Source: Methylocystaceae bacterium (GTDB taxonomy: Bacteria; Pseudomonadota; Alphaproteobacteria; Rhizobiales; Beijerinckiaceae). Taken from it: a DNA stretch of 11,728 nucleotides. The stretch spans positions 1 through 11,728 of the forward strand of contig PLZT01000397.1 of NCBI GenBank assembly GCA_003152255.1, in the 5' to 3' direction. Under the pieces are notes generated by a model. The model was not told the DNA's origin. It worked only from the letters and a program-made list of their open reading frames with translations, and ran no database searches. This document shows positions 609 to 11,100 of this stretch, piece by piece (position 1 is the stretch's first letter; every line of letters starts with the position of its first letter). Position numbers and translations under genes: made by a program.

Positions 609-1385
609 ATGGTTAGTCCACGGCTAACGCTTAAGTTTCTAGGGAAACTCTTCAGCGCATTGGTCTTCATCGCCGCGGGCGTAGGCGCGCTTTCCGGCTG
701 CAACGGCGTTCCCGGCGACGGCGACGGCGCCAGCCTCGCGCCGCGGGAGGACGCGGACACGGCGGCCGCCGCGCAAGCCGCGCGCGCGGCGAATAAATAC
801 GCATCGGCCGCGACGCCCGGAAACGCGGGCTATTTGGTTGGGCCGCAGGACGTTTTGGACGTTACTGTTTTCCAGGCGCCAGATCTTTCGAAGTCGGTGC
901 AGGTCGCCGAGGACGGCGCCATCAATTTGCCTCTCCTGGGTCAAATCCCCGCCGCCGGGAGGAGCGCCTCGCGGCTGGAGCGCGACATCGAGGCGCGTCT
1001 CAACGCGCGTTATCTCAAATCGGCCCAGGTCACGGTGTTTGTCAGAGAATACAACAGTCAGCGCGTCACCGTTGAGGGCGCGGTGAGATCCCCGGGCGTC
1101 TATCCGCTGCGCGGCAATGACACTTTGATGCAAGTGCTCGCAAAAAGCGGGGGGGTGAGCAGGGATATCGCCTCGGACAATGCCATCGTTTTCCGTAACG
1201 CCGACGGCGCGCGCACGATGGTCCGATTCGACATTTCGACAATTCGGAGCGGCGCGGAACCGGATCCGCGGGTGCTGCCGGGCGACGTCGTTCTCGTCGA
1301 GGAGTCCGCGGCCAAGGAAACCTTAAACTTGTTTTTGAGGGTGTTGCCCGTGGCGGGCACCGCCGCCACCGTGGCGGCTTACTAG
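609..1385 (+). CDS. Polysaccharide export lipoprotein, Wza type (OPX family)
   Basis: This is an outer-membrane polysaccharide export protein of 258 residues. It should form the periplasmic and outer-membrane channel through which the polymer made under control of the next gene leaves the cell. An N-terminal hydrophobic segment (about residues 11-29) ends in a lipobox, LSGC, with the lipidated cysteine at position 31. A poly-export domain starts at Y75 (YLVGPQDVLDV) and runs to about residue 150. An SLBB domain follows (QRVTVEGAVRSPGVY, from Q151). The C-terminus is a short hydrophobic stretch. The protein is shorter than E. coli Wza but within the range of alphaproteobacterial members. The ATG at 609 is preceded by GAGGTGAGG, a good ribosome binding site. 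It is first in the operon, 56 bases ahead of the kinase gene. Family assignment is firm; the exact polymer is unknown. Confidence 0.93.
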   Translation: MVSPRLTLKFLGKLFSALVFIAAGVGALSGCNGVPGDGDGASLAPREDADTAAAAQAARAANKYASAATPGNAGYLVGPQDVLDVTVFQAPDLSKSVQVAEDGAINLPLLGQIPAAGRSASRLERDIEARLNARYLKSAQVTVFVREYNSQRVTVEGAVRSPGVYPLRGNDTLMQVLAKSGGVSRDIASDNAIVFRNADGARTMVRFDISTIRSGAEPDPRVLPGDVVLVEESAAKETLNLFLRVLPVAGTAATVAAY

Positions 1386-1441: not shown

Positions 1442-3739
1442 ATGGCCGAAGATCAACGGAGCGAAGCGTCCGCCGAAGACGGCGCCCCGGCGGCCCGCGC
1501 GATCGTCGAGAGGCGGGGTCATTCGCCGTCAAGCTACCCCTATCGGGAGGGCGTCGAGCCTTTCACCGGCGCGAGCGACGCGGACGCGGGGCTGGATTTG
1601 CGCAATATCTCGCGCGTCCTCATCAAACGAAAATGGTTGATCGTCGCCGTCACCGCCACGTTCGTTTGTCTCGGCCTCCTATGGGCGCTCCTGCAGACGC
1701 CGCTCTATAAAGCGACACTGCGCCTGCAGATCGATCGCAGCGCGGCCCAGATCGTTAAGGGGGAAGATCTAGAGTCCTCGCCTGACAGCAACGATTTCGC
1801 CACAGAGATCGAGCTGCTTAAGAGCCTTGGTCTCGCGGAGCGGGTGGGGTCGCTGACGCGGATCGCGCGCGATCAGGGCCCCAACACCCTCTCGCCGGCC
1901 GCGGCTGACGCAGGCGCTCCGGGCGGGAGCAAACTCGCCGGCCAGCAGCGCGCCGCGGCGGCGGGCATTGTTAGAAATCTCGTGGTCAAGCCGGTGATCG
2001 GGACGCGCCTCGTGGACATAAGCTACAGCGATCCGAGCCCGGCGTCGGCGCAAAGGATCGCCAATGCTTATGGCGAGGCCTATATCGCCGCCAGTCTCGA
2101 CAAGCGCTTTCAAGCCAACGCTTACGCCAAATCGTTCCTCGAGGATCAGCTCAAACAGTTGAAACTTCGTCTCGAAGAGTCCGAGAAGGCGTTGCTGGCG
2201 TTCGCCGAAAAGGAGCAAATCGTTCAAACCAACGACAGAGCCTCGGTCGCGGAGAACAATCTGGCGGCCGCCAACAGCGCGCTGGGCACGCTCATCGCCG
2301 AGCGCATCAAGAACGAACAATTGTGGCGGCAGGCCGAAAACGCCTCGGGAATCAACGTGCCGCAAATCCTAACGAACAGGGCGATCGAGGAACTGCGGAG
2401 CCGGCGAGGTCAGCTCGTCGCCGAATATCAAGAGAAATTGGAAACATTCCGCGCCGATTATCCGGCCATGTTGCAAATCAGCAATAAAATCAAAGAAATC
2501 GATCATCAGATCGGCGTCGAGGTGAAGGCGATCAAATCCTCGCTGAAAGCCGCGTTCGACGCGTCGTCGAGCCAAGAAACCGAGATGAAGCAGAGGATCG
2601 ACATATTGCGCGGAGAATCGCTCGATCTGCAAAGGCGCAGCATTCAATACAACATACTAAAGCGCGAAGTGGACACGACACGGGCGCTTTACGAAAGTTT
2701 ATTACAGCGTTACAAAGAAGTTGACGTCGCGAGCGGCGTGGGCACCAATAGAGTCTTCATTATCGATGGGGCGGAGCTGCCGACGGCGCCAAGCTGGCCC
2801 AATAAACTCCTGACGTTCCTTGCCGCGCTGGCGCTCGGATTTGGCGTGAGCGGCGCCGCGGCCTTCTTGCTCGAGCAGTTCGACGATTTGATTTATTCGC
2901 CGGGCGACGCGGAAGCCGCCTCGGGTCTGGCGCTTATTGGCGTCATTCCGAGATTCGACGAAGAGAAGCAGACGCTTGAGGCCGAGCTCTCCAATCCGCG
3001 CTCGGTTCTCTCGGAGGCGTTCCGATCGACGTGCACGTCGCTGCAGTTCTCAACCGAAACTGGCATCCCAAAGGCGCTGATGATCACCAGCGCGACGCCG
3101 ACGGAAGGGAAAACAAGCACCGCGGTCGGCATCGGGCGACAATTCGCCGCCGCTGGCCTCAAGGTGCTGATCGTGGACGCCGATCTCCGCAAGCCCTCGC
3201 TGCATCTGAAAATTGGCGTCGACAACAGCGTGGGCCTAAGCACTTATCTGACCCATAACTGCACGGTTGAGGACGCGATTCGAAAAATTAACCCAAAGCT
3301 TAATCTTTATGTGATGACCTCCGGTCCGCTGCCGCCCAACCCCGTGGAGTTGTTGCATGGCCCACACTTCGCCTCGCTGCTGTCCGTGGCCGGCGAAGTC
3401 TTCGATTTGGTTATCATTGACGCGCCGCCGGTCATGGGAATGGCCGACACGCTCGTGCTCTCTAATATGGTGAAAAGCACGCTGTTCGTCATCGCCTCCG
3501 GCGAGGGACGAATCGGGCAGCTTCGCAACGCCCTCAAGCGGTTGGCGCAGGCGCGCGTCATCCCCCTAGGCTTCGTCCTCAACAAGTTCGTCGCCAAGGG
3601 CCATTACGGATATGGATATGGATATGGATATGGATATGGATATGGAGACGAAGAGGCGCATTTGCTTCACCATGGCGATGGCAAAGCGTCCGAAGCCGGC
3701 GACAAGTCTGACGAAGCGCCGGTTGCGGAGGAAAGCTGA
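1442..3739 (+). CDS. Polysaccharide co-polymerase and BY-kinase, Wzc type
   Basis: This 765-residue inner-membrane protein couples a Wzz-type chain-length domain to a bacterial tyrosine autokinase. The Wzz domain starts near residue 50, with membrane span 1 at about 65-84 (FVCLGLLWALL). A periplasmic coiled-coil region follows, then a GNVR-like segment near 400-458 ending in a proline-rich motif (PTAPSWPNK) and membrane span 2 (about 456-478). The cytoplasmic kinase has Walker A (ATPTEGKTS, K557), Walker A' (VLIVDADLRKP, D579/D581) and Walker B (LVIIDAPP, D660). The tail carries YGYGYGYGYGYGYG at 722-735, the autophosphorylated tyrosine cluster, encoded by a perfect hexamer repeat. The usual EX2RX2R oligomerisation motif reads E525-A-F-R528-S-T-C531, so its second arginine is a cysteine. 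The ATG at 1442 follows GGGGAAGGGGAA. Length and domain order are normal for the family. Partners are the export protein upstream and the phosphatase at 6040-6960. Confidence 0.95.
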   Translation: MAEDQRSEASAEDGAPAARAIVERRGHSPSSYPYREGVEPFTGASDADAGLDLRNISRVLIKRKWLIVAVTATFVCLGLLWALLQTPLYKATLRLQIDRSAAQIVKGEDLESSPDSNDFATEIELLKSLGLAERVGSLTRIARDQGPNTLSPAAADAGAPGGSKLAGQQRAAAAGIVRNLVVKPVIGTRLVDISYSDPSPASAQRIANAYGEAYIAASLDKRFQANAYAKSFLEDQLKQLKLRLEESEKALLAFAEKEQIVQTNDRASVAENNLAAANSALGTLIAERIKNEQLWRQAENASGINVPQILTNRAIEELRSRRGQLVAEYQEKLETFRADYPAMLQISNKIKEIDHQIGVEVKAIKSSLKAAFDASSSQETEMKQRIDILRGESLDLQRRSIQYNILKREVDTTRALYESLLQRYKEVDVASGVGTNRVFIIDGAELPTAPSWPNKLLTFLAALALGFGVSGAAAFLLEQFDDLIYSPGDAEAASGLALIGVIPRFDEEKQTLEAELSNPRSVLSEAFRSTCTSLQFSTETGIPKALMITSATPTEGKTSTAVGIGRQFAAAGLKVLIVDADLRKPSLHLKIGVDNSVGLSTYLTHNCTVEDAIRKINPKLNLYVMTSGPLPPNPVELLHGPHFASLLSVAGEVFDLVIIDAPPVMGMADTLVLSNMVKSTLFVIASGEGRIGQLRNALKRLAQARVIPLGFVLNKFVAKGHYGYGYGYGYGYGYGDEEAHLLHHGDGKASEAGDKSDEAPVAEES
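3605..3646 (+). repeat. Hexanucleotide tandem repeat encoding the tyrosine tail
   Basis: Six perfect TATGGA units fill 3611-3646, preceded by the one-base variant TACGGA-like unit TAC GGA at 3605-3610. Each six-base unit encodes Tyr-Gly, so slippage adds or removes whole YG units without breaking the reading frame. On the other strand the same repeat translates as alternating His-Ile, which has no significance. Confidence 0.9.
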
Positions 3740-3742
3740 ACG

Positions 3743-4396
3743 ATGGCGCAGCCGGCGCCCGATCAAGAGATTGGGGCGGTGCGGGCCGCGCTTGACTTGC
3801 TCGTGGCGCCGTCGCGCGGTCGACGCTTCCAAAGCGCCGCTCTGCCGGAAGGCATGACCTTGTTGCTGCGAATCGTCGCCGATGATCAAGGCGCCATCGA
3901 AGCGTCCGCCCAACGGACGCAGAATTCGCCGCAAAAGCTGCGGGAAGCGGCGGCGTTTTACGTCGAACAGATCCTGCTGGCCGCAAATTCTGACAGTTAT
4001 CGCGTGCTGGGGGCGCGGCGAAACGCGACTCCGGGGGAGCTGCGTCGACATCTTGCCCTTCTTTGCAAATGGCTGCATTCCGAGCGGTGCCCGGGGTTGG
4101 CGCGATCCATGTTTTTCTTGCGGATCACCCATGCCTGGAACAATCTCAAGACGCCGGAGCGGCGCGCCGACTATGACGCGACGTTGGACGCGCGCATGGC
4201 GGCGCTCGCCGCCCGTAAGGCTCGAGTCGACGACTTCGCAAACACCCACCGCGGGAACGGCAAAGCCCGGCCTCCTTGCGGCGAAGCGCTGGCCGCAAGC
4301 CAGGGACAGGCGCGCATCGGCCCCGCGCCAAAGCGCAAGGCGCACAGTCTGTGGCGTCGGCTCATCGCCTTCGCGTTCGGCGCGCAGGCGCGCTGA
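3743..4396 (+). CDS. Small protein with a degenerate J-domain
   Basis: This 217-residue protein contains a J-domain-like segment from about Y86 to L147. It begins SYRVLGARRNATPGELRRH and ends in PERRADYDATL, which matches the first helices and the closing helix of DnaJ-type domains. The loop that should read HPD is HSE at H112-E114, so the residues that stimulate Hsp70 ATPase are absent and normal co-chaperone action is unlikely. No signal peptide or membrane span is evident. The tail (about 150-217) is basic and low in complexity, ending WRRLIAFAFGAQAR, a possible amphipathic membrane-binding helix. GGAGGA at 3727-3732, inside the end of the kinase gene, serves the ATG only 3 bases after its stop, so translation is probably coupled. 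Context suggests an accessory to the kinase, perhaps a scaffold. Fold assignment is fairly good; function is unknown. Confidence 0.75.
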   Translation: MAQPAPDQEIGAVRAALDLLVAPSRGRRFQSAALPEGMTLLLRIVADDQGAIEASAQRTQNSPQKLREAAAFYVEQILLAANSDSYRVLGARRNATPGELRRHLALLCKWLHSERCPGLARSMFFLRITHAWNNLKTPERRADYDATLDARMAALAARKARVDDFANTHRGNGKARPPCGEALAASQGQARIGPAPKRKAHSLWRRLIAFAFGAQAR

Positions 4397-4432
4397 GTTC
4401 TGCAAACGACGAGCGTCAAAAAGGCTTTGATC

Positions 4433-5764
4433 ATGCCAGAGTTGCATCGTCCTTCCGCGCCGCGCCCCGGGGCCGACGCGTGGCGTCATGCGCCGGGTCT
4501 CGCGGCCTTGAGCCTGCTCGGAGTGGCGCTTTGCTGGTTGATCGTCTCTCACAGCGTCGCAGGTTGGCTGTCTCGGACCTCGCCGAAGAGCGCGCTCTTG
4601 TTGCGGGGGAACGACCCTGCGTCCTTGCTCGCGCTCGTCGATAAGGAAATCAACTTCGGCGCCGGCGACCCGAGCAAGACGCCTGGGCCTTCGCAACCAA
4701 CGGCGCAGCGTCTAAAGCAGCTGCGCGACCTGGCCGAGACGGCTCTCATCAACGAGCCTCTCTCATCGCGCGCGTACCGGCTGTTGGGGCAAATAGCGGA
4801 TCGCCAGGGCTTTGCTGAGAAGGCTGAGACCCTTATGCGCGCCGCCGCGCGCGCCGATCTCCACGAAAGCGCCTCTGTCCATTGGATGATGTGGAAAAGC
4901 TTCGAACGCAAGGACTACCCTGCCGCAGCCTATTACGCCGACGCGCTGTTTCGCTCGGGGCGTGGGGCTGCAATAACTGGAGATGCGATGCCGATTTTGG
5001 CGCGCATGGCGGAGGACCCCGCCGCCAAGCAAGAGATCAAAAAGCTGCTCGCCGCAAATCCGAGTTGGAGGAGCTGGTTTCTTGGCGCGCTCGGCCCGTA
5101 TATCAGAGATGCGCGCACGCCGCTCGATTTGTTTTTGAGCCTCAAAGACACGCGAGCGCCGCCAACGACGGAAGAGCTCAACGCCTATCAATGGTTTCTC
5201 GTTCGGCACAAGCTTCATGAGCTGGCCTATTATGTTTGGCTGCAGTTCCTGCCACCCGAAAAATTGGAGGCCGCGGGGTTCCTGTTTAACGGCGATTTCG
5301 AGGCGAGACCTTCAGGTTCGCCCTTCGACTGGCAGGCCGCGGCGGGCGTCAATGTGATCGTTGATTTCGCGCCGAGGCTTGAAAATCCGAGCGATCATGC
5401 GCTTGTGGTTGAATTTGGCCCCGGGCGCGTCGAGTTCCCTGGCGTATCTCAGTCGATCGTTCTCGCGCCCGGCGCTTATCTCCTGCGGGGCTCGGTAAAT
5501 GGCGAGGTTCTTGGGCGGCGCGGCGTGGATTGGGGCGTAAGTTGCGTGGACGGAACGAGCCTCGGCCAGAGCGAGATGATCGCGGGAACCTTCCCAATAT
5601 GGCGGGCCTTTGAATTCGCATTCGTCGTGCCAGAGACTGGTTGCTCCGCCCAATTAGTACAGCTTAAGCTTGATGCTCGCTCTCCCTCGGAGCAGCTCGT
5701 GTCCGGCGCAATTTGGTTCGACGAGCTGGCGATTTCGCACAGCGAGAAAAAACTGCCCAAGTAG
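4433..5764 (+). CDS. Membrane-anchored TPR-like protein with C-terminal beta-sandwich-like region
   Basis: I do not recognise a named family for this protein of about 443 residues. A single hydrophobic span lies near residues 22-43 (LAALSLLGVALCWLIVSH), with a short basic N-terminus, so most of the protein is probably periplasmic. Residues of about 95-200 look like helical TPR-type repeats (SRAYRLLGQIADRQG, YPAAAYYADALFRSG). The region from about 283 (FNGDFE, N286) to 435 has the NGDFE opening and alternating polar and hydrophobic strands common in carbohydrate-binding, galactose-binding-like modules. The ATG at 4433 is preferred over the in-frame TTG at 4427 because AAAAAGG at 4418-4424 is then correctly spaced. 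It is the last gene of the operon, 36 bases after the J-like gene. A role in assembling or guiding the polysaccharide across the periplasm is inferred from context only. Confidence 0.75.
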   Translation: MPELHRPSAPRPGADAWRHAPGLAALSLLGVALCWLIVSHSVAGWLSRTSPKSALLLRGNDPASLLALVDKEINFGAGDPSKTPGPSQPTAQRLKQLRDLAETALINEPLSSRAYRLLGQIADRQGFAEKAETLMRAAARADLHESASVHWMMWKSFERKDYPAAAYYADALFRSGRGAAITGDAMPILARMAEDPAAKQEIKKLLAANPSWRSWFLGALGPYIRDARTPLDLFLSLKDTRAPPTTEELNAYQWFLVRHKLHELAYYVWLQFLPPEKLEAAGFLFNGDFEARPSGSPFDWQAAAGVNVIVDFAPRLENPSDHALVVEFGPGRVEFPGVSQSIVLAPGAYLLRGSVNGEVLGRRGVDWGVSCVDGTSLGQSEMIAGTFPIWRAFEFAFVVPETGCSAQLVQLKLDARSPSEQLVSGAIWFDELAISHSEKKLPK

Positions 5765-6039: not shown

Positions 6040-6960
6040 TTAACCGCCTATCTTTGTGAGGTCCAGAAAGCGATGAGCCCAATCAGTAAAACCGCGAGCC
6101 TTATTTGCTTCGGCGCGCCCGGTCGAGTCGCCATCTCGTTGGATAATATCCGGCCTTTTCCGACGAGCAGCGAAGTTGCGCTCCGCCGCGTCGTGACTAA
6201 CTTTGCCTCCCGCCTTTGCAGCACCGGCGGGCGCGCTAACTTTCGAAGGCTCCACGTTCAATAGGACAGCGCGTGGACGGATGCAGACTAGTTGCTCCGC
6301 CTCATCTTCGCCCAGCCACTTGGCCGCAACCGCCCGGCCGTCCGCGAGATCAGGCCGCCGGCGTTTGGCGCCATGGGCGTCAGACGCCAAGATTTGGACA
6401 AGGCCGTCGCTAAGCATTCGCTCCGCCCAGTATTTCGGCCTCCTCCCAAAGGCTCCGGTTAACGAGCCGGATGTAAGCTGCATCCACACGCCAGCGCGGA
6501 ACAGTTGCACGAAGAGCATATAGTGCGTCTCTATCCACGTCAGCCTTTCGGGGTGGGTGAGGATGGGAACGTAACCAGCGGCCAGCAGTTCGAAGAAAAA
6601 ATATTCTATCCTGGGCGGGGCGACGTGATGCGGCGGCTCAACGAGGACGTATCGCGTGTCCGCCAGCGATAAGATGGCGCCTTCTCGCAGTTTGCCCGCC
6701 ATGTTGGGGACCACATGAGCGTCAGCGCCGGTAACTAGGCGCAATGGGACGCCGCGCTCATCCAAATACCGTTGAAGCTCAAGGGTCGCCGAACGAATCT
6801 GAGCCCCGCTATTTTGATAAAGGCCTGGAAAGATATGCGGCGTGCAGGCCTGGATCGTGACCCCGTTGGTCACGGCGATGCGCGCCATTTCGAGAGAAAT
6901 GTTTAGATTAGCGGCTCCGTCATCAATTCCGGGCAGGATATGCGAATGAAGGTCAATCAC
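6040..6960 (-). CDS. CpsB/CapC-type PHP tyrosine phosphatase
   Basis: This is a metal-dependent protein-tyrosine phosphatase of the PHP superfamily that dephosphorylates BY-kinase tails (here presumably that of the 1442-3739 product), acting in the cytoplasm. From the chosen start, the PHP motifs are IDLHSHILPGIDDGA (H5, H7, D13, D14), CTPHIFPG (H42), TGADAHV (D80, H82), LVEPP (E108), ILTHPER (H136, E138, R139) and SDAHG (D194, H196). The core ends near residue 235. About 70 further residues, basic and alanine-rich, make it longer (306) than the usual roughly 250. I chose the GTG at 6960 because GAGG at 6973-6970 is well spaced and members normally begin (M/V)IDLH; a GTG at 6975 would add five residues but lacks a good ribosome binding site. 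The gene converges on the kinase operon, which is less usual than sitting inside it. Confidence 0.92.
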   Translation of the reverse strand: MIDLHSHILPGIDDGAANLNISLEMARIAVTNGVTIQACTPHIFPGLYQNSGAQIRSATLELQRYLDERGVPLRLVTGADAHVVPNMAGKLREGAILSLADTRYVLVEPPHHVAPPRIEYFFFELLAAGYVPILTHPERLTWIETHYMLFVQLFRAGVWMQLTSGSLTGAFGRRPKYWAERMLSDGLVQILASDAHGAKRRRPDLADGRAVAAKWLGEDEAEQLVCIRPRAVLLNVEPSKVSAPAGAAKAGGKVSHDAAERNFAARRKRPDIIQRDGDSTGRAEANKARGFTDWAHRFLDLTKIGG

Positions 6961-7107
6961 GCCACTCAGCCTCACATTGCGCCAAAGAGTTCTGCAACTA
7001 ACAGCGGATAGCGGCTTTTATTTGGCGTTTCGCCTGCGCCGATCGAGCGAGTTAAGCTCGACCCGCTCCAGCACATGCCGGGACTAAACACCTAGCTCAG
7101 TTCAAGC

Positions 7108-9003: not shown

Positions 9004-10039
9004 ATGTCCCAACAAGAGCTTTATGTCGGCCTCGACGTGTCGCTCGAGACGACTTCAATCTGTGTCGTCGACCATGATGGTTCAACAGTTTGGCGTGGCT
9101 CGGGCCCCACCGATGCGGCAATCATCACCAAAACAATACGATTGCGCGCGGCGAACGCCGTGCGCGTTGGGCTCGAAACCGGGCAAATGTCCAATTGGCT
9201 CACGCTCTCCCTGCGCGCGCGGGCTACCCGTCATTTGTCTCGATGCGCGCCACGCCAAACCGGCGCTCAAAATGCAAGTCAATAAAACCGACGCCAATGA
9301 CGCTTGGGGATTGGCCCAGATCGTTCGCACCGGCTGGTTTCGTGAAGTCGCCGTCAAAGGCATGGACGCTCACAAGCTGCGCATGCTCTTGGTTGCGCGC
9401 TCGCAACTGGTCGGACAACGCCAGTCGCTCGCCAGCACCATTCGCGGGTTGATGAAAACCTTCGGCCTCGTCATTCCACGCAGGTGCGGCGCCCTGTTCG
9501 CCACGCGCGTTCGGGAGGCGGAAGAAGGCAAAGATGCGCTGATGGCGATCGTCGAACCCCTGCTCGCTGCTTGGCAGTCGCTCCGTGAACAAATCGCTGT
9601 GTTCGATCGGCAAATCAGCGCACGCGCCAAATCCGATTCCGTGGCGCGTTGTCTGATGACCGTGCCCGGCGTCGGCGTTGTCGTCGCTCTGGCCTATGCC
9701 GCCGTGATCGACGATCCAGCAAGATTCAAGCATTCGTCTTCGGTCGGTGCGTATCTCGGCCTCACGCCCCGGCGCTACCAATCCGGCGACATCGACGTGA
9801 CAGGCCACATCTCCCGTTGCGGCGACGGCCTGCTGCGCTCTTACCTCTTCGAGGCGGCAACCGTCATCTTGCAGCGCTATTCCCGTGCATCCCAACTCAA
9901 GGCATGGGGGCTGGCGCTCGCCAAACGCATCGGCATGCGCTGCGCCAAGGTTGCCATCGCGCGTAGGCTGGCCGTCATCATGCATCGCATGTGGATGGAT
10001 GCAACCGAGTTCCAAGGCGGCGAACGTGCTGCCGCCTGA
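9004..10039 (+). pseudogene. IS110-family (DEDD) transposase, frameshifted
   Basis: The N-terminal part starts at ATG 9004 after GGAGG (8993-8997). It carries the RuvC-like motifs YVGLDVS (D11) and VGLETG (E58). It then runs out of frame at about 9214-9223 into a stop at 9285. The rest continues in the next frame: GLPVICLDARHAK, NKTDANDAWGLAQIVRTGWF (the two further acidic residues), and the C-terminal Transposase_20 region (TVPGVGVVVALAY, then GAYLGLTPRRYQSG and GHISRCGDGLLRSYLFEAA with the conserved serine). Read across the shift, length and all motifs match full IS110 transposases of about 345 residues. The break lies in a (CG)4 tract; adding one CG unit restores LRARGLPV exactly. These recombinases use a bridge RNA from the element's own non-coding end; this copy is probably inactive unless complemented. 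Confidence 0.88.
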
Positions 10040-10542: not shown

Positions 10543-11100
10543 ACCGAGGAGCGCGAGGTTCTTTATCCTTGGCATGCGTGGTCTGGATGCATTGTTCGCG
10601 TTGACGGCGTTGTCGAGAAGACGGCTGGCGATGTCGTTCGCTGTAGCCGCCCGGGTGACATTACTCGCCTATCGCAAGAACTGCCGGCATGGATGTTCGA
10701 CCGGGGCGCCTGCGCTGCAATGCGGGTTGAGGCGATCCCGCAGGCAGATGTTGTCGCATTGCAGGCGTCGCGGGCTCTGTTGACCGAAGTAGGCGGAGTC
10801 GGCGTCGCCACCTGCCTCACATCATCGAATGCCCCGGTTTTTGGTGCACCGAGGGTCTCTCACGACCAGCATCGGAGAGAGACTCATGCGACGCCAGCAC
10901 AAATTTCGCCATCGACATCGGAGCGGGACTCAGCAGTTCGATTTGTTCAGGGAGCCGGGCGGCGACGGCGCGACGCAAAGGCCGGAGTGGCGGAGTCTGC
11001 CCATGCAGACCCGCGAGGCGCTGACGGAGTTGATGGTGCGCCTGATACTCGACCACGCAAAAGAATCGTGTCGTCCCCGCCTGGGGGAGGCGCGCCATGA
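10543..11100 (+). pseudogene. First reading frame of the recombinase module, 5'-truncated or with a non-standard start
   Basis: From about 10543 the plus-strand frame reads EEREVLYPWHAWSG, VRVDGVVEKTAGDVVRC, LPAWMFDRGACAAMRVEA and then a variable tail, closing at TGA 11098-11100. Similar proteins, as I recall them, precede serine recombinases in alphaproteobacterial mobile elements; their function is unknown to me. No ATG, GTG or TTG lies in frame between the conserved start and the ATG at 10693 inside the conserved WMFDRG motif. The 5' end was therefore lost at the junction with the integrase remnant near 10531, or translation begins unusually. The last 215 bases overlap the next gene in another frame and may be only its shadow. 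I have not named a Pfam family because I cannot verify one. Confidence 0.45.
10855..10883 (+). promoter_or_regulatory. Hairpin covering the ribosome binding site of the small middle gene
   Basis: GTCTCTC (10855-10861) is complementary to GAGAGAC (10877-10883), with a 15-base loop. The 3' arm contains the GGAGAGAG purine tract that would bind the ribosome for the ATG at 10886. If formed, the hairpin would hide the start of the small gene unless ribosomes translating the overlapping upstream frame open it. Confidence 0.4.

Follow-up and report, generated by a model that had tools for sequence, protein, structure and literature searches.

Why BY-kinases bear several tail tyrosines, and whether the number of these tyrosines sets the output of polysaccharide, matters for an understanding of how capsules and exopolysaccharides (EPS) are assembled. 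In Streptococcus pneumoniae, Morona et al. (2003) reportedly found a (YGX)4 repeat domain in CpsD. CpsD and its membrane part, CpsC, are described as two distinct proteins (PMC4574921). In Wzc of E. coli, phosphorylation is reported to proceed from the C-terminus to the N-terminus, and a pocket is described that holds the tyrosine two positions before the active-site tyrosine (PMC11986026, PMC8285477). According to the same reports, the function of Wzc is set by the extent of phosphorylation and not by any single tyrosine (PMC11986026, PMC8285477), and the octamer is reported to disassemble after the fourth phosphate (PMC11986026). In VpsO of Vibrio cholerae, one among the single tail mutants is reported to have 3-fold lower polysaccharide, two triple mutants 2- and 4-fold lower, and one quadruple mutant 26-fold lower; its authors state that both the position and the number of the tyrosines matter (PMC7485978). 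Among the open-licence papers listed in our searches, none was, by its title or the start of its abstract, about repeat-number variation of BY-kinase tails.

The stretch of DNA analysed here (the window; 11,728 nucleotides from a Methylocystaceae bacterium, related to methane-oxidising bacteria) carries on its forward strand a polysaccharide co-polymerase/tyrosine autokinase gene (1442..3739) that encodes 765 residues with Wzz, GNVR, and BY-kinase domains. The matches to Wzz (PF02706), GNVR (PF13807), and AAA_31 (PF13614) lie in one chain and are all above the Pfam cut-offs. TIGR01007 scores 153.7 bits against a cut-off of 108.05, and TIGR01005 (eps_transp_fam) scores 257.7, under its cut-off of 411.7. 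The Walker A stretch ATPTEGKTS (3092..3118, forward strand) includes Lys557, which aligns with residue 540 of Wzc and is a lysine in 117/117 relatives. Two further stretches on the same strand were placed from the sequence: KVLIVDADLRKPS (3161..3199), which we take to be Walker A', and DLVIIDAPP (3404..3430), presumably Walker B. The chain can be aligned to the solved Wzc, tyrosine tail included. The domain matches and this alignment through the tail bear out the first-pass annotation, made from the letters of the window, which had called the protein a Wzc-type BY-kinase with a tail. Judged by sequence, the protein is a Wzc/ExoP-type tyrosine autokinase of the BY-kinase/PCP-2a class and, by analogy, its gene probably controls exopolysaccharide production.

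The named genomes nearest to the window kinase are from Methylocystaceae and Methylocystis, at 56–65% identity. The closest kinase relative, P0027, is 88% identical over 59%, and its database record has a frame change in the kinase domain, which may be either a true inactivation or a sequencing error. A second protein search returned, among the 120 matches listed, no tail near enough to belong to P0027.

The gene upstream of the kinase gene (609..1385, forward strand) encodes its partner, a Wza-like polysaccharide export protein (Poly_export + SLBB). Directly downstream on the same strand lies a gene for a J-domain-like protein (3743..4396), followed by a gene for a 445-residue protein (4427..5764) without a Pfam or NCBIfam match. 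On the reverse strand, 6040..6975 encodes a CpsB/CapC (PHP-type) tyrosine phosphatase, the candidate cognate phosphatase of the kinase. In a tblastn survey of 19 related loci, some of them short or ended by contig edges, the Wza-like gene is present in 17, and the 445-residue protein, the J-like gene, and the PHP phosphatase are encoded near the kinase in 16, 12, and 9, respectively; one of these nine (L019) is a Gram-positive locus. The phosphatase was not found by tblastn in the five closest loci (L001–L005), two of which are short. CpsB/CapC PHP-type phosphatases are described for Gram-positives (PMC11986026); the window pairs such an enzyme with a fused kinase of the Gram-negative type. 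The J-domain-like protein scores 25.6 bits with Pfam DnaJ, under the cut-off of 27.8, and lacks HPD: at the place of HPD in L008, both L001 and the protein of the window read HSE. Judging by these residues, the window gene may no longer encode the motif typical of J-domains. An annotated J-domain gene also follows a Bradyrhizobium plasmid kinase. The window further contains an IS110-family transposase gene (9004–10039, forward strand), divided over two reading frames, and a resolvase-type recombinase gene that starts at 11097 and continues past the window end.

The hexamer array occupies 3605..3646 of the forward strand and encodes (Tyr-Gly)7, residues 722–735 of the kinase. It is composed of a divergent first unit, TACGGA (3605..3610), and six identical TATGGA units (3611..3646), the part most able to slip; the string and the kinase frame are exactly those from which seven YG units had been read in the first-pass annotation. 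Past the array lies a tyrosine-free C-terminal extension of 30 residues (3647..3736, forward strand); in the relatives, the median length beyond the last tyrosine of the cluster is 25 residues. Tandem Repeats Finder reports the array at 3608–3646 with period 6, 6.5 copies, and a 100% match, and its score of 78 is by far the best in the window (runner-up, 35). The array is thus a uniform short tandem repeat within a gene, one mark of a simple-sequence contingency locus.

In six genes of the window, array excluded, GGA accounts for 21/162 glycine codons and TAT for 29/47 tyrosine codons; in the rest of the kinase gene, GGA accounts for 5/50 glycine codons. With the codon usage of the six genes, the chance of seven consecutive GGA codons is ~6e-7, and that of six TATGGA units under independent codon choice is ~3e-7. 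When the kinase gene's own codon usage was simulated, the longest identical run of the window was equalled in 0.5% of 2000 runs; this figure is milder because runs of any hexamer were counted and pseudocounts of 0.5 were used. Codons chosen independently of one another would hardly yield such an array. Among 99 kinase tails with at least three consecutive YG units each (window included), the run of six ranks behind two runs of seven (TACGGC in L139 and TATGGT in L037) and is equalled by one other (TACGGC in L193); the run length is unusual, not unique. The codon-chance figures, the simulation, and this ranking agree with the earlier suggestion of a recent expansion and support a recent local homogenisation or expansion of the repeat; the DNA-level perfection of the window array is local and apparently recent.

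Uniformity of this kind recurs in other species. In a first set of kinases (48 arrays of at least three units; window and near-duplicate L034 excluded), 66/213 neighbouring hexamers are identical against 45.4 ± 6.4 expected (p = 0.0016), in a test that, like those below, takes species as independent, which is true only partly. L018, which has no YG run, and 16 kinases with fewer than three units, out of 67 in that set, lie outside the array tests. A second set of 70 sphingomonad-family kinases, from the best 67 of 151 matching genomes by rank, gives 73/219 identical neighbours in 49 arrays against 50.1 ± 6.6 expected (p = 0.0006). In both sets together (97 arrays, window and L034 excluded), the count is 139/432 against 95.5 ± 9.3 expected, which 0/5000 simulations reach. 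Permutation of units inside the arrays of the first set leaves a weak excess (66 against 57.2 ± 4.4, p = 0.031). The signal is confined to a minority of arrays, each of which repeats its own hexamer: TATGGA in the window and L191, TATGGT in L037 and L027, TATGGG in L104 and L032, TATGGC in L128 and L132, and TACGGC in L139 and L193. Such a pattern would be expected if arrays had expanded in tandem from time to time and synonymous changes had then eroded their uniformity. Uniformity without slippage would require selection for TAT-GGA at this very place, through codon usage, pausing, or mRNA structure. TAT is the majority tyrosine codon of the window genes, as such selection would have it, but GGA is a minority glycine codon there, and arrays elsewhere either repeat TATGGT, TATGGG, TATGGC, or TACGGC or mix their hexamers, so that we consider this explanation highly improbable.

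The length of the protein also changes much more readily in the tail than elsewhere. From 38 pairs of full-length proteins at at least 85% identity, 17 disjoint pairs were drawn; the proteins come from a 90%-clustered database with many metagenomic entries, a non-random strain sample in which assembly errors are possible. In these pairs the tail has 13 indels in 279 columns and the rest of the protein has 11 in 12,788, a 54-fold difference, and the gaps are of even length in 10/13 cases in the tail compared with 4/11 elsewhere. In the eight disjoint pairs at at least 90% identity, there are 3 tail events in 121 columns compared with 3 in 6,017 elsewhere, and five of the eight have no tail indel. 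In particular, P0066 and P0068 (97.8% identical) and P0055 and P0058 (96.1% identical) are one YG unit apart, and P0025 and P0028 (92.3% identical) are two units apart. The indel hotspot in the tail, the even-length steps, and the one-unit differences at 96–98% identity support the view that slippage brings about the changes in length.

At the DNA level, we compared 11 pairs at at least 82% identity over the kinase region, with at least three YG units on both sides. Aligned tail length is equal in 8/11 and different in 3/11. The tail of L022 differs from those of L024 and L023 by four residues, partly not YG, and the tails of L023 and L024 are equal in length in the alignment. L036 and L037 (94.2% nucleotide identity) have seven and ten units, respectively, with aligned tails 10 residues apart; the longer partner, L037, has seven perfect TATGGT units. 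Tail length differs in 3/5 pairs with a perfect run of at least three in either member and in 0/6 pairs without one. A counter-example is L108 and L109, with mixed codons and one unit apart; as one of the two has no more than two YG units in a row, this pair is not among the 11. In these few, partly related pairs, arrays of a single hexamer appear to change length more easily than arrays of mixed codons.

The first-pass annotation had suggested counting units in related genomes and had taken a constant number across strains and reads as a refutation of its proposal. In the relatives counted here, which are not strains of the organism itself, very close ones differ in unit number, so a constant number is not what is seen; among the DNA pairs, constancy holds for all six that lack a perfect run of at least three and fails for three of the five that have one. 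A repeat number that differs between close relatives, another mark of a contingency locus, is accordingly found in the tails of relatives, which are of other species than the window.

The tail peptide is conserved across the family. In 117 other full-length relatives, the spacing between tail tyrosines is exactly two in 542/646 cases, and the spacer is glycine in 416 of these 542; the first tail tyrosine is kept as tyrosine in 113/117 aligned relatives. The (YG)7 of the window has the C-terminal tyrosine cluster with YxY pattern that is characteristic of BY-kinases, and its seven tail tyrosines equal the mode of the 117 relatives (seven in 39/117, six or seven in 63/117, with clusters defined by gaps of at most five, by which a few tails with a split cluster, e.g., P0019, are undercounted). 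In the sphingomonad family, the commonest YG run is six (23/70), and the number of tail tyrosines is six in 38/69 and seven in 16/69 (54/69 at six to seven, by the same cluster rule; one duplicate of L016 omitted). Consecutive YG units range from one to ten among related kinases. In 13/40 DNA arrays of at least four YG units (window included), no two neighbouring hexamers are alike; therefore, the peptide is maintained while its codons drift. The (YG)n tail peptide is an old family trait, apparently under selection. Synonymous variation in close relatives had been named in the first-pass annotation as a sign of an old and stable repeat that would refute its proposal; in part this counts against the proposal, since the peptide is old and encoded by mixed codons in many species. 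The DNA run of the window is apparently recent.

Three sphingomonad-family genomes (G816, G664, and G508) carry two near-identical kinase genes each (L156–L161), ~24–28 kb apart and with the same tyrosine cluster. These duplicates were set aside as examples of tail-length change: their extreme C-termini differ, and the length differences fall beyond the tyrosine cluster, not within it.

The concentration of tyrosine number at six to seven suggests stabilising selection rather than free tuning. The same clustering, seven in 39/117 relatives and six in 38/69 sphingomonad tails, would also result if slippage were real and the number within about five to eight were functionally neutral, the array being a by-product. 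If ring disassembly sets in at about four phosphates, as reported for E. coli Wzc after the fourth (PMC11986026), stabilising selection would remove only the extremes, and the persistence of long arrays of mixed codons is consistent with such buffering. However, the indel hotspot in the tail leaves room for an effect, a graded output upon removal of tail tyrosines is reported for VpsO (PMC7485978), and a maintained mode may itself mean that the number matters. We consider neutrality within this range a serious contender, at somewhat less than an even chance.

A different proposal, raised by the first-pass annotation, is that clones within one population differ in unit number and hence in EPS output. 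The perfect 36-bp hexamer run and the unit changes at 96–98% protein identity are in line with it, and there are precedents in other systems. For the capsule glycosyltransferase gene gtr76 of A. baumannii, a 6-bp deletion that keeps the frame of (TAAATT)4 is reported to have arisen more than once, both in cultures and in isolates from patients, and it is suggested that the loss may modulate rather than inactivate the protein (PMC9247103); therefore, slippage in arrays of a few hexamers is possible within such periods. On plasmids of Lactiplantibacillus plantarum, a related kinase has a YGX-like tail that differs between strains in 9-bp steps. Nine Lactiplantibacillus records have 6, 6, 6, 6, 4, 4, 4, 4, and 1 tail tyrosines, seven of them chosen after their spans were known, mostly for odd spans, so that the series is not a frequency estimate; among the best 60 of 81 matches, 8 deviate in span as judged by eye, one of which is from L. 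pentosus. In L121 (L. plantarum plasmid, NZ_CP071895), a stop cuts the tail after the first tail tyrosine. Against the proposal, the A. baumannii hexamer sits in a different gene, and the L. plantarum tails are imperfect YGX-like DNA, not perfect repeats, in strains that are not one population. In addition, the tyrosine number is narrowly distributed, and therefore stabilising selection is favoured over a free clonal rheostat. Differences between clones of one population thus seem unlikely to us.

The tails of E. coli wzc and etk are without DNA repeats. For etk, the query was covered in 59/60 sampled E. coli rows, with spans of 501 (44), 500 (1), and 506 (14) bases, and no 6-bp step was found among the 60. 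The wzc locus was matched in 52/60 sampled rows, 30 in a single piece and 22 in several. The single-piece rows keep the span in 28/30 cases, the other two being +3 and −11, changes that may lie anywhere in the queried span, and contain no 6-bp steps; the 22 multi-piece rows have longer spans, and their extra length may lie anywhere in the queried locus. Two other candidates for a multi-strain comparison were rejected: the plasmid-borne kinases of Bradyrhizobium carry too few YG units, and for a Sphingomonas plasmid array the plasmid collection contained one other record, with 70% identity across 28% of the query.

Taken as a whole, the observations are best explained, in our judgement with good probability, by a phospho-acceptor tail that is altered by slippage, whose tyrosine number would affect polysaccharide output and be held by selection near six to seven. 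Across the family, the sequence comparisons give good support to slippage-born evolution of tail length that proceeds mostly by one or more entire units. In the proposed mechanism, the array would encode the phospho-acceptor tail of a Wzc/ExoP-type co-polymerase kinase. By extension from Wzc, the uniform YxY track would be threaded from the C-terminus to the N-terminus through the active site of the neighbouring subunit, gaining one phosphate per tyrosine until the ring falls apart, and the tail would be reset by a phosphatase, for which the product of the neighbouring PHP gene is a candidate. With the track fed through in this way, one TATGGA unit would correspond to one ratchet step. The comparisons support a tail DNA that is made uniform again and again and that changes length, mostly by two residues (6 bp), through replication slippage or an equivalent tandem duplication; on this reading, the window represents such an expansion ahead of synonymous decay. 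Slippage would in this manner generate variants of a kinase feature that is quantitative: the unit number would shift phosphorylation capacity and hence polysaccharide output or chain length, and selection would keep it near six to seven tyrosines.

Some features of the Wzc mechanism are not found in the window kinase. The pocket acid E675 of Wzc aligns with Gln693, and the relatives have Leu, Gln, Ala, Ser, and others at this position. D28 of the D28–K701 pair aligns with Lys62, which is Lys or Arg in 117/117, and K701 aligns with Lys719. The window kinase therefore has neither the Glu of the charge-rejecting tyrosine pocket (E675) nor the Asp/Lys pair (D28–K701) of Wzc, and with E675 and D28 not conserved, details of the mechanism would have to differ from those in Wzc; in particular, the exact chemistry of the ratchet may differ.

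In its strongest form, slippage would add or remove ratchet steps within clonal populations and so grade the amount or chain length of polysaccharide, which we regard as unlikely. If true, the array would be a contingency locus that acts on how strongly a signalling enzyme responds (its gain) and not as an on/off switch of a gene, and such loci would recur across alphaproteobacteria with different hexamers. The family offers a natural length series of one to ten YG units, encoded by a DNA repeat in which a step of one unit adds or removes a single acceptor site; therefore, the question of tyrosine number is testable with natural and synonymous-scrambled alleles. More generally, it would illustrate in quantitative terms how the evolution of tandem repeats can act on the number of phosphorylation sites.

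The described systems share different parts of this arrangement. With Wzc of E. coli (PDB 7nhr, 3la6), the window kinase shares the Wzz-like, GNVR, and kinase parts in one chain, the P-loop lysine, a C-terminal tyrosine cluster that starts at a nearly equal aligned place, an adjoining Wza-like gene, and Lys719 at the K701 position. However, the tail of Wzc K-12 is irregular (AYQDYGYYEYEYKSDAK), whereas that of the window is a pure (YG)7 followed by the 30-residue tyrosine-free extension; Glu675 and D28 of Wzc are Gln and Lys in the window kinase; and the nearby phosphatase is of the PHP type in the window and wzb in E. coli. VpsO of Vibrio cholerae is likewise a Gram-negative BY-kinase, and the number and position of its tail tyrosines are reported to determine the amount of polysaccharide, but its tail has six irregularly spaced tyrosines, and the section consulted makes no mention of a hexamer repeat (PMC7485978). 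With CpsD, the window kinase shares a short Tyr-Gly repeat as an autophosphorylation domain of a BY-kinase, a putative one in the window. The unit of CpsD has three residues (YGX), whereas that of the window has two and is uniform in its DNA, so the tail is not of the CpsD type, and the window kinase is fused, unlike the separate CpsD and CpsC. As with the hexamers of gtr76 and mutL, loss of one 6-bp unit in the window would remove two residues. The 6-bp repeats carried by Salmonella mutL are not known to be a phosphorylation-site array. Nor is the gtr76 hexamer part of such an array, whereas each unit of the window array encodes one putative phospho-acceptor.
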